From contig NZ_CP015986.1 of NCBI RefSeq assembly GCF_001658005.1, positions 2,233,501 through 2,297,500 on the forward strand: a stretch of 64,000 bases of DNA. Direction: 5' to 3'. Position 1 is the stretch's first letter. Each line of letters opens with the position of its first letter. A model generated the notes under the pieces. The model had not been told where the DNA came from and searched no databases. It was given only the letters and a program-made list of their open reading frames with translations. Positions 5,457 to 64,000 of this stretch are shown here, one piece after another. Made by a program: the position numbers and the translations under genes. Source of the DNA: Sphingobium sp. EP60837 (lineage in GTDB: Bacteria; Pseudomonadota; Alphaproteobacteria; Sphingomonadales; Sphingomonadaceae).

Positions 5457-6743
5457 ATGGCGCAACCCAAGGTCGATAAGCTCGTCACCGCGATCGATAT
5501 AGGGTCGTGGAAGGTGTCCGCGCTGATTGCGGGGCGCACCGAAACGGGGGAGTTGGCGATCTTGGGCACCGGGCAGCGGGAAAGCCGGGGCGTGCGCCGC
5601 GGCTTCATCGCCGACATGGAGCGGACTGAACTGGCCGTACGCGAAACCGTCGAGCAGGCCGAGCGCGTCGCGGGCACCAATATCGAGGATGTGTGGGTCA
5701 GTTTTTCGGGCGGCAGCCTGGTCAGCGACGTCGTCACGGTCGAGCGCGACATGGGCGGTTATCGCGTCGAGCAGCCCGACATCGACGACCTGCTCGCCAC
5801 GGGGCAGCAGGGCATCGATCCTGACGGGCGGGTAGTGCTTCATGCGCAGCCCACATGTTTCACCATAAATGGCAAAGTGCCGGTCAAAAAGCCGCTCGGC
5901 ATGCACGCGGATCTTTTGGGCGTCGATATCCATGTTGTGCTGGCCGACGGAGCGCCGCTGGCCAATCTCGACCTGTGCGTTCGCGGGGCCTATCTCAACG
6001 TCAACTCCATCGTCGCTTCGCCGATCGCGACAGGGCTCGCCTGCTTGTCGGAAGAGGAGAGGGACCTGGGCGTCGCCCTCGTTGAACTCGGCGCAGGCGT
6101 GACCAACGTCTCGCTCTATGCAGGCGGCATGCTCGTCGGCCTGCACAGCATCCCGATCGGTGCTTCCGACATCACCGATGATATCGCATCAGCCTTCGGG
6201 ATCCGCCGCAGCCAGGCTGAACGGATCAAATGCTTCTATGGCTCGGCGATGCAGAACCGCCGCGACTTTCGCGACATGATCGAGATTGCGCCGCCGCATG
6301 GCGACGTCGCCGTGCCGGGGCAGAGCGCTGGCCCCAACGCGGACGGAGGCAAGATCACGCGCGCCGCTCTGGTCGCCGTGATTTGCGAGCGGCTCAACCA
6401 GTTGATGACGGAGATCAACGCCGCGCTCGCGGGCATGGGGTTCAACACGCCCACCGGCCGGCAGGTAGTCTTGACCGGTGGCGGAGCGGAATTGAAGGGC
6501 ATCGCCGACTATGCGCAGGGCGCGCTGGGTCGCGCCGTCCGCATCGGTAGGCCGCGCGGGTTGGCAGCGTTGCCCGAAGCGCATAGCGGCCCTGCCTTCG
6601 CAACATTGGCGGGCCTTGCGCTTTATGGCGCATCGAACCCGGTTGATCTTAGAACGATAGCGCCCGCTCCTCAGACCGTTCATCGTATCAATGCACCCCA
6701 ATGGTGGCAGCGGATGGTGCGGGCGATGAAGACGAACTATTGA
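5457..6743 (+). CDS. ftsA: Cell division protein FtsA
   Basis: Actin-fold ATPase that tethers FtsZ to the membrane. The start was set at the ATG at 5457 (MAQPKVDKLVTAIDIGSWKV), four bases after ftsQ, giving 428 residues; the open frame upstream lies inside ftsQ. The phosphate-1 loop is AIDIGSWKVSALIAG, phosphate-2 is LVELGAGVTNVSLY, and the adenosine motif is VVLTGGGAELKGI. The C-terminal WWQRMVRAMKTNY matches the short amphipathic membrane-targeting helix of FtsA. A 110 bp gap separates it from ftsZ and may hold an ftsZ promoter. Confidence 0.97.
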   Translation: MAQPKVDKLVTAIDIGSWKVSALIAGRTETGELAILGTGQRESRGVRRGFIADMERTELAVRETVEQAERVAGTNIEDVWVSFSGGSLVSDVVTVERDMGGYRVEQPDIDDLLATGQQGIDPDGRVVLHAQPTCFTINGKVPVKKPLGMHADLLGVDIHVVLADGAPLANLDLCVRGAYLNVNSIVASPIATGLACLSEEERDLGVALVELGAGVTNVSLYAGGMLVGLHSIPIGASDITDDIASAFGIRRSQAERIKCFYGSAMQNRRDFRDMIEIAPPHGDVAVPGQSAGPNADGGKITRAALVAVICERLNQLMTEINAALAGMGFNTPTGRQVVLTGGGAELKGIADYAQGALGRAVRIGRPRGLAALPEAHSGPAFATLAGLALYGASNPVDLRTIAPAPQTVHRINAPQWWQRMVRAMKTNY

Positions 6744-6853
6744 ATAAATCGAAAGCCGAATGAAATTTGCTGGTGAAATACACCATTTTCTGTTGCATTA
6801 ACCTTCGATGACAGTTTCGCTCATGTCGCCGAAGCTGGAGGGAGCTAGAATTT

Positions 6854-8311
6854 ATGAGCATTGAGATCAGCCCGCCGCATGTGGACGAGTTGAAGCCTCG
6901 CATCGCGGTGATCGGCGTAGGCGGCGCGGGCGGCAACGCCATCGCGAACATGATCGCCGCGTCGGTTGAGGGCGTGGATTTCATCGTCGCCAACACTGAC
7001 GCGCAGGCCCTGAACGCCTCGCCCGCAGAGCGCCGTATCCAGCTGGGTCCGCAGATCACGGAAGGTTTGGGCGCTGGATCGCGTCCGGAAATCGGCAAGG
7101 CCGCTGCTGAGGAGACGATCGCTTCCGTCGAAGATGCGCTGAACGGCGCGCATATGTGCTTCATCGCAGCAGGCATGGGCGGCGGCACCGGCACCGGCGC
7201 TGCTCCCGTCATTGCGAAGGCTGCACGCGACAAGGGCATCCTGACCGTCGGCGTTGTGACAAAGCCCTTCACCTTCGAAGGCAACCGCCGCATGAAGTCG
7301 GCGGAATCCGGCATCGAAGAACTGCAGAAGCATGTCGATACCCTCATCGTCATCCCGAACCAGAATCTGTTCCTGATCGCGAACCCCAACACCACCTTCA
7401 AGGAAGCCTTCCAGATGGCTGACGAGGTGCTGCAGCAAGGTGTTCGCGGCATCACTGACCTCATGGTGATGCCGGGCCTCATCAACCTCGATTTCGCCGA
7501 CGTCCGTTCGGTGATGGGTGAGATGGGCAAGGCGATGATGGGCACTGGCGAAGCGGAAGGCGACGGCCGCGCGCTCCAGGCCGCTGAAAAGGCTATCGCT
7601 AACCCGCTACTCGACGGCGTTTCGATGCGCGGCGCCAAGGGCGTTATTGTTTCCATCGTCGGCGGCGACGACATGCGCCTGATGGAAGTCGATGAGGCGG
7701 CGAACCACATCCGCGAACTGGTCGATCCCGATGCGAACATCATTTGGGGTTCGGCGTTCAATGACGGCCTCAATGGAAAAATCCGTGTGTCGGTTGTGGC
7801 GACCGGCATCGACAGTGAAGCGACCGCCGGAGCCGCGCCTCTGACCCAGCCGTTCAGCTTCGCCAACCGCCCGGCTGTGGCGGTGCCCGCCGCCGCTGCT
7901 TCGCGTCAGACGCCTCCGCCCGCACCCGCCCCGGTTGCAGCACCTGAGCCGGAGCCCGAGACGCTGGAATTGGATGTGCCCGCCGCTCCGGAGCCGGCTC
8001 CGATCGCTGCGCCCATCGAAGAAAAGGCCGCTGCGCCCAAGCCCGCTCCTGCGGCACCTGCGCGCCCGGCCGCCATATTCTCGGATGAAGACTCCTCGCA
8101 GGATGAGTTGCTGCTAGGTGCCGAAGCGGCCGAATCGCAGCCCGTTCCCGCGCCTGCTCCCCAAGCTGCGCCGCGTGTCGCCACCGGCGGCACCCTGTTT
8201 GAGCGTATGGCAGGTCTAACCCGGGGCGCGGACAAGAATGCTGCAGCAAGCGACGATGCCGGATCGACCCCCGACATCCCGCGCTTCCTCAACCGCCAAA
8301 GCAATCAGTAA
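6854..8311 (+). CDS. ftsZ: Cell division protein FtsZ
   Basis: Tubulin-like GTPase that polymerises into the Z ring at midcell. The GTPase core spans residues 1-320 with [10 protein letters not shown] and the tubulin signature [12 protein letters not shown] (about residues 110-121), and T7-loop residues [12 protein letters not shown] long Pro/Ala-rich linker (about 330-460) leads to a conserved C-terminal peptide DIPRFLNRQ, the FtsA- and ZipA-type binding tail. A ribosome binding site GGAGGGAG precedes the ATG. The extended linker is typical of alphaproteobacterial FtsZ (485 residues). An intrinsic terminator follows. Confidence 0.99.
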
Positions 8312-58955: not shown

Positions 58956-59039
58956 CCGTTCGGGCTGGCTGAATGCGCCACTTGCCTCATTCAGATGTCC
59001 ATGCCCGCGTGCGCGCTTTGATAGGCTCAGGGCGAACGG
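58956..59039. repeat. REP-like inverted repeat after etfA
   Basis: CCGTTCGGGCTGGCTGA (from 58956) is an imperfect inverted copy of GGCTCAGGGCGAACGG (to 59039). The arm TAGGCTCAGGGCGAACGG shares its layout with the 17315-17338 copy. It sits between etfA and its terminator. Confidence 0.55.
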
Positions 59040-59064
59040 TGGTGAGGGGCTTCCCTTGAAAAGG

Positions 59065-59093
59065 GGGCGCGGCTGATGGCCGCGCCCTTTTTT
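59065..59093 (+). terminator. Intrinsic terminator of sucC/etfBA region
   Basis: GGGCGCGGC (59065-59073) pairs perfectly with GCCGCGCCC (59079-59087) around TGATG and is followed by TTTTTT. It ends just before the stop codon of the decayed minus-strand gene. Confidence 0.9.
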
Positions 59094-59094
59094 G

Positions 59095-59405
59095 TTATTC
59101 GCGGCGGACGTCGTTGCGATTGAGGGCCCGGTCGGCGAGTGCGCCTCCTGCGTAGGGGATGGTGCCTCAGCGTTTTGGGGCCGCCGGGCGATGATGTTGC
59201 CCAGATGTAGCCTGCGATTGCGCCGACTATGGTTCGGCGGTGCTGTCGTGGCCTTGCAATGGTAGCGGTTGTTGGTGTTGGCGAGGACGCGGCCGGAATA
59301 GGCGGGACGGGGCCGGATGGGCGGTCGTAGCTATAGCGGTCGCTTTAGGTGTCGCAGGCGGTTGGTGGGATCGCCAGCAGTGTCGCGGCAAGGCGGGGTG
59401 CGCAT
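59095..59405 (-). pseudogene. Decayed glycine-zipper (17 kDa surface antigen-like) membrane protein gene
   Basis: Reading the minus strand in all frames recovers pieces of one small envelope protein in order. They are a signal-peptide-like RLAATLLAIPPTACDT, then DRYSYDRPSGP, then NNRYHCK, then TIVGAIAGYIWG, and finally AGGALADRALNRNDVRRE followed by a stop at 59095. These match the layout of sphingomonad glycine-zipper proteins (Cys-containing stretch, then VGG-x-AGG helices, then a DRND-type end). At least two frameshifts and internal stops separate the pieces. The adjoining 59406-59623 hold no coding frame that looks real. Confidence 0.6.
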
Positions 59406-59623
59406 TAGATATTCTTCTAAAACTGCGTCACTGACAGGGTAACAACCCCTGGTTGGGATGAGTTGCGCGGGCGGAACGGATCGCGAGGGAGAGCCCTGGC
59501 GCGGGAAATAGTCCACCCGCCGCGGCGCCGCGAAAGGGGGAGGACGCGGGCCGGGCGGGCGGTGGCCAGCGGCCAGAGGGAGAAGCCGCCGGAACTACAA
59601 TATCGTGACGTTGAGCGCCGAAA

Positions 59624-59860
59624 TCAGCTGGCGATGGGCGAGCTGGACGGCGTGTGGCGCGGCGGGGTTGGGGTCACCGCGGGAGACATGTCGCTGCCGC
59701 TCAGGCTGCTGCTGCTGCTGCCTGTCCGGTTGGACAGGTCGCTGCGGGCTTGCTGATAGCGGGAGACGAGGTCTTCCTTGAACTCGGTCAGCTTGCCTTC
59801 GTCATACAGCTTCTTGCCGACGTAACCGGCGATCGCGCCGAAAATCAGGGTACGGATCAT
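59624..59860 (-). CDS. Small hypothetical protein with N-terminal hydrophobic segment
   Basis: A 78-residue protein starting MIRTLIFGAIAGYVGKKLYDEG at ATG 59860, with a short N-terminal membrane-associating helix, a charged middle (LTEFKEDLVSRYQQARSDLS) and a Ser/Pro-rich tail. The upstream part of the open frame is not coding-like. Proteins of this form are common in sphingomonads with no assigned function. Confidence 0.7.
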   Translation of the reverse strand: MIRTLIFGAIAGYVGKKLYDEGKLTEFKEDLVSRYQQARSDLSNRTGSSSSSLSGSDMSPAVTPTPPRHTPSSSPIAS

Positions 59861-59997
59861 TGTGCCTTGCTCCTTACGGGATGTGTCCTGGCAGGGTTTG
59901 CACAGGATAACAGGTGGAGCGGCGTTGGGTTCCGGGCGCTTTTGGGTAATCGACAGGGCGAGCGCAGCAGGCGGCGTGAGGGCACGGGCCCCCTTAT

Positions 59998-60198
59998 TCA
60001 GACCGTCTCCGCATCCTTGGCGGCGGCGGCTGCGGCTTCGCGCCGGGCGCGGTTGGCGTCGGCCAAATCCTGACGATGGGCCATGGTGAGGAAAGCGGCT
60101 TCCGAACGCAGGCAGCGATTGCGCACATTGTCTAGCGAGGAGGCGTCGGCTTCGCTGCGGGCCTGAGCGGCGAGCGCGCGATAGTCGGGATGGGTCAT
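59998..60198 (-). CDS. Small conserved hypothetical protein (66 residues)
   Basis: A soluble, highly charged helical protein (MTHPDYRALAAQARSEADAS...; ends AAAAAKDAETV). ATG 60198 has GGGAG 6 bp upstream. The sequence NVRNRCLRSEAAFLTMAHRQ is the most conserved-looking part and resembles short sphingomonad proteins of unknown role. It lies downstream of the cold-shock gene on the same strand. Confidence 0.65.
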   Translation of the reverse strand: MTHPDYRALAAQARSEADASSLDNVRNRCLRSEAAFLTMAHRQDLADANRARREAAAAAAKDAETV

Positions 60199-60274
60199 GG
60201 GCTTTCTCCCTTCCTGCAAGGCGACGATGGGAGGACCGGACGCCGCCCATCAAAGCGGCGTCCGGCCATTCCGA

Positions 60275-60487
60275 TTATTGGGCGTGCTGGAGGTTCACCG
60301 CCGCCATCTTGCCGCGCTTGTCCTGCTCCAGATCATAGGAGACACGGTCCTTTTCACGCAGCGTGGCGAGGCCAGCGCGTTCCACGGCCGAGATGTGGAC
60401 GAAAGCGTCCGGGCTGCCGTCATCGGGAGCGATGAAGCCATAGCCCTTGTCGGCGTTGAAGAATTTGACGGTTCCGACGATGCTCAT
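60275..60487 (-). CDS. Cold-shock protein (CspA family)
   Basis: A 70-residue single-stranded nucleic acid binding protein. RNP1-like KGYGFIAPDD and RNP2-like AFVHISAV are present in GTVKFFNADKGYGFIAPDDGSPDAFVHISAVERAGL. ATG 60487 is the CspA start; the longer open frame is 5' untranslated sequence. It probably acts as an RNA chaperone. Confidence 0.96.
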   Translation of the reverse strand: MSIVGTVKFFNADKGYGFIAPDDGSPDAFVHISAVERAGLATLREKDRVSYDLEQDKRGKMAAVNLQHAQ

Positions 60488-60678
60488 TGGGTATTCCTTC
60501 TTTCGTGCGGCGCGCCCCGTGTGGACGGGCCTTGCGCTAGAGGGGCAGGGAAAGAAGGAAGTTTGGTGCCGCAAAGCGCCGAAAGACCGTCGATTTGCGA
60601 CTGTAGCAGCGCCCATATGGGCCCCGGGGCGCGGAATAGCAAGGGCTACCCCATCCGCTGGCCGTGATCGGCCAGCCT

Positions 60679-61707
60679 TCAGCCCGATCCATCCAGCGCC
60701 GCAAAGCCGAAAAAGACGTCGCGGGCGCGGGCCGCGGCATCCTCATAGGGGCGGCGCTGCAGGGCCTGCCGCGCGGCGAGCGCGTCTTCCTCCTGCGGCG
60801 TCAGGTCGCGCTCATAGCCGTCGATGTCGTATATGTCGTCGCTTTCATCGCCGTCGAAATCCGGCGGCGCGGGATAGTCGGTGCGCCAGGCTTCCCTTTC
60901 CTCGTCCCACCATATGCCGCGCAGGCGGGCGGCGGCCTGAGCAGGCGGAAGGGTCGCGCGATCGACCGGCGGCAGGCGAAGTTCACACCGGTCATCGAGG
61001 GGGTAGGGCTGAGCCTTGTCGCGCCCGCTCAGCGCCATCCGCGCGGCGACGAAAAGCGCGGCGGACGCGCCCGGCGACAGTGCGGTGGCGGTCTGTTCAA
61101 GGCCAAGCGGCGCATCCGATGAGGCGGCGTCGAGCAGCCCGGCCTCTTCCCCGTCGAGCGCCAGGGGTTCGCCGCCGGGGGACGCCAAGCCGAGGCGATC
61201 CGCCTCCGCCGCCGCCAGTTCCATCGCCTGATCCGGCATCCGCTGCTCCGGGCAGATGAGGTCGAGATAGGCGGCGAAATCCTGCGCCACGACGCGGGCG
61301 AGCGCGGCGTCGGACCCCTCGGGCGGGCTGTCGGCCATGCGGTCGAGGCGCGAGAGCATCGACATGGCGAGGCGGTTGTCGTGGCGGTGGCGGGTGATTT
61401 CGCCTGCGTCCATGTCCTTGCGGATCACTTCCTCATGGCCGGTGAGGGCGCGGGCGAGCAGATCATCGGCGAGGCGCGCGCGCGCGATGAGGATGGCCGC
61501 GTCCCAGCCGAGGCGAAAGGCCGCGCCGTCGCGGCGGATGCGTAAGGCGTAAGCCGAGCGCGTGGTGATGGCGGCGGCGTCGCAGGCCGTGCGGATGATG
61601 CCGGTGGCGGCGAGGGTTTCAAGGAAGGTCCGCTGCCGCGCGGGGCTCCAGCCGTCGGCGCGGATTTGCTGCGCGGGCGTGGGGAGAGGAGGGAATTGGC
61701 AGGTCAT
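60679..61707 (-). CDS. Hypothetical protein with terminase-small-subunit-like N-terminal helix-turn-helix
   Basis: A 342-residue acidic, cytoplasmic protein. The N-terminal WSPARQRTFLETLAATGIIRTACDAAAITTRSAYALRIRRDGAAFRLGWD resembles the DNA-binding HTH of phage terminase small subunits, but the rest is unlike them and no phage genes surround it. The C-terminal 100 residues are acidic (DFDGDESDDIYDIDGY). Proteins with this layout occur singly in sphingomonad chromosomes. Function unknown. Confidence 0.72.
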   Translation of the reverse strand: MTCQFPPLPTPAQQIRADGWSPARQRTFLETLAATGIIRTACDAAAITTRSAYALRIRRDGAAFRLGWDAAILIARARLADDLLARALTGHEEVIRKDMDAGEITRHRHDNRLAMSMLSRLDRMADSPPEGSDAALARVVAQDFAAYLDLICPEQRMPDQAMELAAAEADRLGLASPGGEPLALDGEEAGLLDAASSDAPLGLEQTATALSPGASAALFVAARMALSGRDKAQPYPLDDRCELRLPPVDRATLPPAQAAARLRGIWWDEEREAWRTDYPAPPDFDGDESDDIYDIDGYERDLTPQEEDALAARQALQRRPYEDAAARARDVFFGFAALDGSG

Positions 61708-61824
61708 GGCAAGGCCCTTTTCGTTAGGTGGCTTTGCCGGGAGGATATGTCAGGAGAGGGGTTGTAGGACAGAACAAAATGGGAACATGCGGCGGGGGCG
61801 GTTTACAAATCATGATGGTTGGTG

Positions 61825-61858
61825 TGCCTGGCATCGCCTTTCCGGCGAATACCAGGCA
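61825..61858. other. Stem-loop at the 3' end of the ATPase gene
   Basis: TGCCTGG (61825-61831) pairs with CCAGGCA (61852-61858), with CGCC/GGCG paired inside. It lies just past the stop of the minus-strand ATPase gene. No U-run is present, so it is a transcript-end hairpin rather than a proven terminator. Confidence 0.45.
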
Positions 61859-61866
61859 GTGCGAGA

Positions 61867-63977
61867 TTAAGCCGCTATTATTTCGTTTATGACGCTTATC
61901 ATGCCTTCAGGCCGATAGCCGGTGTCAACCATTCTGGACAAAATCATGTTGCGGAGCACTTCATAGGATATCCCATTCGGGAGCTTGGAAGCATATGCTC
62001 GCAATATATCACGTCCGGGCAAGCGTGCGCGCCAGCTTCCATCTGCGAAGGCTTGTTCGATCTGCTCTCTGGTGGATCGTTCGAACCCTCGGACGGCTTC
62101 ATCAGACAGGGTGCCATCCCGCAGTTTTGACAGGCGATCCAAAGAGCGATCTGCTGCCAACAAAATTTCTCGGGTGAAATCACCTGCGGCCGGATCCGAC
62201 TTTAAATCAATAGATCGGATCAAATGCTGGCTAACAAACTCATTCACACTGTGCCTGACGGCAAACGGCACAGTTTCTCTCGCGGCAGACCGCAAATCTT
62301 CAATTACCTTCTCAGGAGTAAGGGTGTTAGTGGCAGAGAGAGAATTAACCACATGGCAAATAGATTCTTCATGAAGAAGGTAATTTTCTATGTGATACAC
62401 GTTCCAAGTGTATCGTTTTATCGCCCGAGAGGATTCATCTGCTTCTTCAAAACCTTTGTCAACAATAGCAAAGAATGAGGTCTTCAAGTCTCCTCTTTCA
62501 TAGGCGCGATTCAGTACCTCGTGAAGTGCTTTGACCTTAGATTTGTTGCTGCCAGAGATCAGGTTTATTTTCTTACCGATTTCCGGAAACAGCCTTAATG
62601 TCATCGATTGATCAAAATCTGTGTCACCTCCGCCCTCAAAAATGATAGCTTTCCGTCCTGGCTCGTATGTTGCCAAGTCGCCAACGAGATCGGTCAGAGC
62701 GATGTCGACATCTTTTGTCGCGCTAAGAGGCTTTAGCTGATTATACCCGACGACAGGAGTGATGTGGCCCGCTGAATTCTGAAGAGAGACAGGTTGCATA
62801 TGAAAAACGTCAAAGCCGGGCTTCCCCACGGCTTCGCGGAGCAAGGCGTCAGAATGAGAAACGAGCCAAATCTGATTATTCAGCGCCTGACCAAGGTGCT
62901 TGCGGTAGAATTCAGGTAGGTTCCTGATTAGTCTAGGATTTAAGTGTAATTCGGGTTCGTCCAGAAGAATGATGGAGTACTTCGGAGCTGAATTTCGTAT
63001 TCTCAAGTAACCATACAAAATCTCTTTCTCGCCCGCGCTCAAATCATCGAGATCATGCGTCGTTCCGGCGCCGGTAATAACAGGAAAGCTCAAGTTTCCG
63101 TCGGACGTTGGCGTAGGCCCCTTAAATTCCTTATCAGGGAAAAATGTCTGGAACAGCTCCTTCATCGTCTGCGTCATTCCAACATGGCTGGCTTCTCCAC
63201 CAGCCTGTTGTGCGAACATTTCTTTGACGTAGCTTGCCGCAAGCTCGCTTTTGACGTTATTGTATTTGTTTGAATAATTGTAAAGCGCGTGTTGACGTTG
63301 ATGCTGCGATGATCCAAACTGATGTTGACGGCTTGAACCAATTCCCGACCATAATGACGTTGCGCGCCGTGATAGTCGACTACGCCAATTTCCTGCGGTC
63401 GATATGTAGTGAAGACAACAGACAATATCTGAGATGGGTGCAGCATGATGCTGCCACCTACTGGGACCGACACTCGGCCAATAATCTGAGGTTGGGCCAA
63501 CTCGGCAAGCAGAGCAGGGAGTTCTGCCTCAACGCGAGCGCGTACTTCTGGCTCTTTCTCCCGAAACTGGCTCGCAAATAGCGCGAGGCGATAAGCGCCA
63601 AATTGGAAAGCCTCGGGCAATATTGTCCGCCAAATTGCGTCAGTTAACAGTTCAGCCGCGTTTCGCGTAACGAAATTCTTTTCAGAATCTTCTAAACTAA
63701 ACTGACATTCAATCAATATTGGTCTAGTGGGATCATTAAACATCCCCTTCAGGCTTTCACCTGTAGCGTTCGGCGCAATTGAGAACTCGCCTAACCAGTT
63801 CTGCCATTCGTTTTGTTGGTATCCGCCATATACGGACTTCAATAGTCGAATGGCATCAAAAATACATGATTTCCCGGACCCATTTTGCCCCGCTATTATA
63901 ATGGTATCGCCGAGATCTTGAGCAGCAACACGTCGAATTCCACGAAAATTTTCTATTGTTATGCTGTCGATCTTCAT
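61867..63977 (-). pseudogene. AAA/ABC-type ATPase fused to a DUF4435-like TOPRIM domain (PARIS/OLD-like), frameshifted
   Basis: ATG 63977 (ribosome binding site AAGGGGG) starts MKIDSITIENFRGIRRV with Walker A GQNGSGKS (residues 30-37); this frame ends at 63174. The rest is read in another frame to the stop at 61867 and carries the signature LSAGEKE, Walker B IILLDEPELHL, LVSHSD, then a TOPRIM-like EGGGDTD, AIVDKGFEEAD and HIENYLL, the DUF4435 pattern. The frames cross near 63309-63318; one added base would give a 703-residue protein reading through HQRQHALYNYSNKYNNVK. The gene is AT-richer than its surroundings and appears acquired. Either a sequencing error or inactivation; an ATPase-nuclease defence role is inferred. 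Confidence 0.75.
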
Positions 63978-64000
63978 AGTTCCCCCTTCAGACCAAATCG

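Follow-up and report, generated by a model that had tools for sequence, protein, structure and literature searches.

A single-chain PARIS gene, probably inactivated, as cargo of a putative defence slot behind uvrA in Sphingobium sp. EP60837

Why does a gene for a fused phage-defence protein lie directly behind the DNA repair gene uvrA in Sphingobium sp. EP60837, and is it still able to work? The gene occupies one end of the window, the 64,000-nucleotide stretch of contig NZ_CP015986.1 (2,233,501 to 2,297,500) analysed here, whose positions are used throughout. We read it, with a probability of about 0.8, as a recently inactivated single-chain PARIS (AriAB), carried as cargo in a chromosomal defence slot whose flanks are uvrA and t342, a conserved gene of 342 codons. 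That it is a homologue of fused, single-chain PARIS is clear from its domains and family matches. Inspection of the open reading frames (ORFs) and their translations bears out the coordinates and motifs listed in an earlier note on this DNA: the minus-strand stretch 61867-63977 (2111 nt) consists of two overlapping ORFs in different frames.

63977-63174, minus strand: N piece, 267 residues; N-terminal half of the ATPase (AriA part) with the Walker A motif GQNGSGKS (Pfam and PADLOC)
63219-61867, minus strand: C piece, 450 residues; C-terminal half of the ATPase (signature and Walker B) running into the AriB (DUF4435/TOPRIM) part (Pfam and PADLOC)
61867..62712, minus strand: AriB-like TOPRIM part, 281 residues plus stop

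The frame of the C piece is open for 553 codons and carries the motifs LSAGEKE, IILLDEPELHL, LVSHSD, EGGGDTD, VDKGFEEAD and HIENYLL. In Pfam, the N piece matches AAA_15 (E 2e-12, 47.9 bits against a cut-off of 32.1), and the C piece matches both AAA_21 (E 5.1e-11, 43.6 bits, cut-off 27) and DUF4435 (E 2.3e-7, 31.3 bits, cut-off 27). The PADLOC model AriAB (PDLC02981) covers the two pieces almost end to end, with model positions 1-233 of 694 in the N piece (E 4.5e-53) and 261-692 in the C piece (E 1.3e-121), and outscores the next PADLOC model by at least 129 bits for both. Folded alone, the AriB part has the AriB of PARIS as its best solved structure in Foldseek. A full-length model of AriAB from Novosphingobium sp. 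Leaf2 gives retron Eco8 and Gabija at the top, and no PARIS chain is among the 50 Foldseek matches listed for it. OLD, Gabija GajA and retron Eco8 likewise join an ABC ATPase to a TOPRIM domain and are the next-best structural matches; a Gabija, OLD or retron identity is ruled out by the PADLOC and family scores and by the structure match of the AriB part. The link to PARIS, which had been drawn from motif order, is thus confirmed by Pfam DUF4435, PADLOC AriAB and the structure comparison, and the DUF4435/TOPRIM similarity of the C-terminal half, whose absence would have told against it, is present in the profile searches. The fused architecture, which the earlier note held to be possibly new, is a known one: the available text of PMC9122126 already describes the AriA-AriB fusion in one chain, and that of PMC12409363 states that the two are sometimes fused.

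The distribution of AriAB is rare and patchy. At E <= 1e-50, the genus has one match among 94 genomes (EP60837 itself), and the family, order, class and phylum samples have a match in 2 of 298, 2 of 396, 1 of 385 and 2 of 398 genomes; these samples overlap, and each includes the EP60837 genome. One intact AriAB lies in another genus (G130) between uvrA and a 271-residue relative of t342, and one in a third sphingomonad (G1342) beside a 302-residue relative, away from uvrA. No match was found at 1e-10 in 50,697 phage records; among 72,556 plasmid records the C piece has two matches at 1e-20 and the Leaf2 protein three at 1e-10, and further matches amount to one viral contig and five loci in genome contigs. 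A phage or plasmid home is ruled out by this near-absence from phage, plasmid and viral records. A plasmid of Lichenicola cladoniae carries an AriAB-like gene (L014 6712-8567) and, a few genes on, a separate pair annotated as an ATP-binding protein and a DUF4435 protein. The search for a type I restriction partner gave no HSDR_N match in the EP60837 genome, other restriction types being outside that search.

Is the EP60837 gene a working PARIS? By analogy with described systems, the AriA half of an intact AriAB would form an ATPase assembly that keeps AriB inactive, a phage anti-restriction protein would free AriB, and the freed TOPRIM nuclease would cleave tRNA and arrest growth. The EP60837 copy has the domain order, the sequence profile and the AriB-type fold of the single-gene form (PDLC02981), here in two pieces, and differs from it at two sites.

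63309..63310, minus strand: site of the frame break (unaltered DNA aligned to the intact Leaf2 gene, L007)
62452..62454, minus strand: second position of the TOPRIM D-x-D motif, Gly instead of Asp (homologue alignment)

TOPRIM domains bind metal through one glutamate and a D-x-D motif. In EP60837 the glutamate is kept and the motif reads D-K-G, where all 11 AriAB homologues compared (L004 and L007-L016) have D-x-D. This second lesion had been overlooked in the earlier note. According to the available text of PMC12409363, AriB is a two-metal nuclease and its E26A mutant is inactive; that of PMC9122126 reports that mutating the TOPRIM catalytic residues abolishes PARIS defence. The first lesion lies in the AriA half. 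The unaltered 2111-nt stretch aligns along its whole length to the Leaf2 gene, with the C piece 77% identical, and Leaf2 is four bases longer between 63310 and 63309. The proposal of a single missing base near 63310 was right about the shift of the frame by one, but compared with its nearest relative the gene is short of four bases. The copy thus lacks the single open frame of AriAB, and the tail of the N piece is out of frame after about 63310. With the frame of the AriA half broken and a conserved aspartate of D-x-D missing from AriB, EP60837 AriAB probably gives no PARIS protection; it is a PARIS homologue, in all likelihood a remnant and not a working member of the family.

Outside these two sites the gene is well kept. 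Of the columns invariant in 10 homologues (the distant L012 excluded), the C piece contains 101, and it departs from them only at the glycine in D-x-D. The same columns give 0 to 15 deviations when each of the ten relatives is left out in turn, and the rest of the C piece is therefore as conserved as in its relatives. The N piece deviates at 13 of 49 invariant columns; two of these deviations precede the break and are shared by Leaf2, and the others fall in the out-of-frame tail. Against Leaf2, nonsynonymous divergence (dN) is 0.145 for the first 220 codons and 0.196 for the C piece, and synonymous sites are saturated (proportion of differences, pS, 0.84 and 0.85). Since the invariant columns are kept and dN is low against saturated pS, these comparisons are read as long purifying selection followed by a recent inactivation in two hits, either of which may have come first.

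The same conservation could also be expected if the frame break were a sequencing or assembly error and the cell made a whole protein, a natural effector-dead PARIS with an Asp-weakened TOPRIM, perhaps still able to bind the trigger: a C piece with one deviation in 101 columns and a low dN would suit such a protein. Recent inactivation explains this equally well, however. The break also lies outside any homopolymer of four or more bases, the closest being AAAA at 63252, and Leaf2, the nearest relative, has four additional bases at this point. An error is accordingly improbable. Alternatively, both pieces may be in use, through a programmed frameshift or as two proteins forming a split AriA. 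The two frames overlap by 355 nt (63528-63173) and the C piece has a start codon of its own, but the overlap holds no in-frame -1 slippery heptamer, and 9 of 11 homologues have both ends of the ATPase in one open frame (the exceptions are L008, with a disturbed N end, and L012, whose distance prevents a close comparison). A programmed frameshift was ruled out on these two grounds, and the loss of the aspartate would persist in any case, so that a use of both pieces is very improbable indeed. In L008, the AriAB of a Desulfobulbaceae metagenome-assembled genome (7242-7400), similarity to the relatives begins only at about residue 40 of the open frame, and the P-loop region looks out of frame.

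The place of the gene is a second question. The coordinates given earlier are correct for the gene, but the variable slot behind uvrA, a feature of more interest, extends beyond them.

61787..64000, minus strand: variable slot; its uvrA-side edge (the uvrA stop) is at about 64005, just outside the window
61772..61786, minus strand: LexA-type box GTTC-N7-GTTC marking the right slot edge; t342 begins about 80 bp further on
60679..61707, minus strand: t342, conserved gene of 342 residues, right flank of the slot (flank comparison)
60275..60616, minus strand: cold-shock protein gene, after t342 in most slot genomes (Pfam CSD 2.2e-20)
59624..59859, minus strand: small conserved gene (start MIRTLIFG), directly after uvrA in six slotless genomes

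The uvrA gene lies just beyond the window in the same direction, with its stop 27 bp before the start of AriAB. Continuous DNA similarity stops within 10 bp of the uvrA stop codon in all 29 relatives compared, some of which show further short matches downstream. The slot was surveyed up to about 6-8 kb behind uvrA, less at contig ends, in 92 of the 94 genomes of the genus, the other two being without a uvrA match. In 42 of them, EP60837 included, t342 follows 1.5-3.1 kb after uvrA; in six the small conserved gene stands 125-277 bp after uvrA without t342 or cargo; in 13 the contig ends too early, and 31 are arranged differently. The 41 slots analysed have a median length of 2271 bp and a mean GC content of 0.51, and the main cargo ORF, named in 40 of them, falls into 35 classes without mutual blastp similarity at 1e-5. 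The interval is a variable slot with conserved flanks, and its contents are probably exchanged by recombination in the flanking genes. No RNA family reached its gathering threshold in 59000-64000. For t342 itself there is neither a Pfam match at E<=1 nor an NCBIfam match. Its family, which also lacks a Pfam match (members at 60679-61707 in the window, L047 3463-4278 and L048 6083-6991) adjoins AriAB in all three sphingomonad genomes from the AriAB family search (G000, G130, G1342). No relative is present within the Leaf2 AriAB locus examined, and a second, weaker one lies about 25 kb from uvrA in the EP60837 genome.

Is this slot a true defence hotspot, as we infer, or a general hotspot for accessory genes, in which defence genes occur since they are common among such genes? 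Several named defence families are among the occupants. A Pfam scan of 40 cargo proteins matched 23 at 0.001 (those in L069, L080 and L105 without reaching Pfam's own cut-off) and left 17 unmatched. The matches comprise AAA_15/AAA_21 with HNH, DUF4435 with AAA_15, Beta_protein (two slots), DUF4062 (two), HSDR_N, GmrSD_N with HEPN, RelA_SpoT, AIPR, FRG, SEFIR/TIR, RVT_1 (two), DUF2971, DUF6236, DUF6414 and DnaJ, and include no integrase or transposase. PADLOC (E <= 1e-10) matched 12 of 20 hand-picked cargo proteins in 11 of 18 slots: PtuA (2.5e-136) and PtuB (1.5e-59) of Septu in L050, beta (4.6e-36, L051), NsnA (4.5e-74, L064), PDC-S33 (4.2e-15, L065; 4.2e-39, L107), AbiU (1.8e-110, L071), PDC-S60 (3.8e-41, L080), RT (3.9e-43, L089, a candidate without settled type), PDC-S15 (1.3e-103, L098), RT_UG13a (8.4e-175, L105) and bSEFIR (4.6e-92, L108). 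None of 10 other long ORFs of the window matched, in a control that is small and hand-picked. Because the cargo proteins were not picked at random, these counts are support and not a measured enrichment. The small control, the 17 proteins without a Pfam match and some occupants that are not typical defence genes would fit a general accessory hotspot. The strong matches to PtuAB, bSEFIR, AbiU, UG13a and NsnA speak against it, as do the small, one-system cargo (median slot 2271 bp) and the finding of genes of defence type at this location in other genera, and we regard it as unlikely. In 20 further family genomes (19 genera), the first genes behind uvrA include one for a NACHT protein (L156), one for a GmrSD/NsnA protein (L151), one for an AriA/OLD-like ATPase (L150) and a Beta_protein gene accompanied by an IrrE-like peptidase (L144). 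L153 has a PIF1-like helicase, and the remainder were judged by eye or gave no defence match.

Some occupants deserve mention in their own right. Slot L052, in another species (G299, about 6111-8273), holds a separate DUF4435 gene, whose protein has no PADLOC match at E <= 1e-10, and an AAA_15 ATPase gene with a split frame; the pair is a second PARIS-like occupant, its ATPase apparently damaged. In L107 (G384, 138-1184) the PDC-S33-like (RelA/SpoT-type) cargo gene is broken by one in-frame stop codon. Small genes by t342 in many slots (L053, L057, L062, L063, L065, L066 and others) resemble RelE/ParE toxin-antitoxin pairs or nucleotidyltransferases by eye. Hotspots in P2-like phages and P4-like satellites, as described in the available text of PMC9122126, likewise have conserved flanks and changing defence cargo, with PARIS among the occupants. 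Unlike these, the uvrA-t342 slot has chromosomal flanks, its scanned cargo is without integrase, and LexA-type boxes stand at uvrA and at 17 of 42 t342 genes. Among the matches listed in the open literature, judged by title and the start of the abstract, none reported a defence hotspot at uvrA in sphingomonads.

Do these boxes connect the slot to the SOS response? GTTC-N7-GTTC is the SOS box of Caulobacter crescentus, where uvrA is among the induced genes (PMC9578287, available text), and the right border of the EP60837 slot, GTTCCCATTTTGTTC, fits it. An exact box lies within 200 bp before t342 in the 17 slots just mentioned, against 0.005 expected per such interval (from slot interiors), and all 20 relatives tested have a box at uvrA, no more than 61 bp from the start used. 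It is possible that a single, swappable cargo sits between LexA-controlled uvrA and a second LexA-type box. Cargo in the uvrA direction, such as AriAB, would then be read through from a DNA-damage promoter, phage attack or DNA damage would raise defence expression, and mutation would remove costly cargo like PARIS when the wiring is triggered in the absence of phage. Several results weigh against such wiring. In 23 of 42 slots t342 lacks a box even with one mismatch allowed; genome-wide, the pattern is found 117 times and its reversed control 93 times; two matches in 20 kb were reached in 16 of 200 shuffles; and the first ORF of the slot, which has the uvrA direction within 100 bp of the stop in 19 of 41 slots and further off in 4, is reversed in 18. 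Because of the boxless slots, the common pattern, the shuffles and the reversed ORFs, the SOS link is held tentatively, as a doubtful proposal. Read-through from uvrA as a general rule is unsupported, given the mixed orientation of the first ORFs. A simple scan, which proves little, found no terminator between uvrA and AriAB.

As a natural PARIS damaged in reading frame and nuclease site alike, the gene offers a modest example of the loss of a costly abortive-infection gene. The slot outweighs the broken gene in importance. If our reading is true, it is a fixed chromosomal address at which species of sphingomonads keep different defence genes, and a survey of it in many genomes would yield new candidate systems, since 17 of the 40 scanned cargo proteins are without a Pfam match. 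If the SOS link also held, the cargo classes without known domains would be candidate defence systems. Since the slot adjoins uvrA, a connection of phage defence with the DNA-damage response can be put to a direct test.
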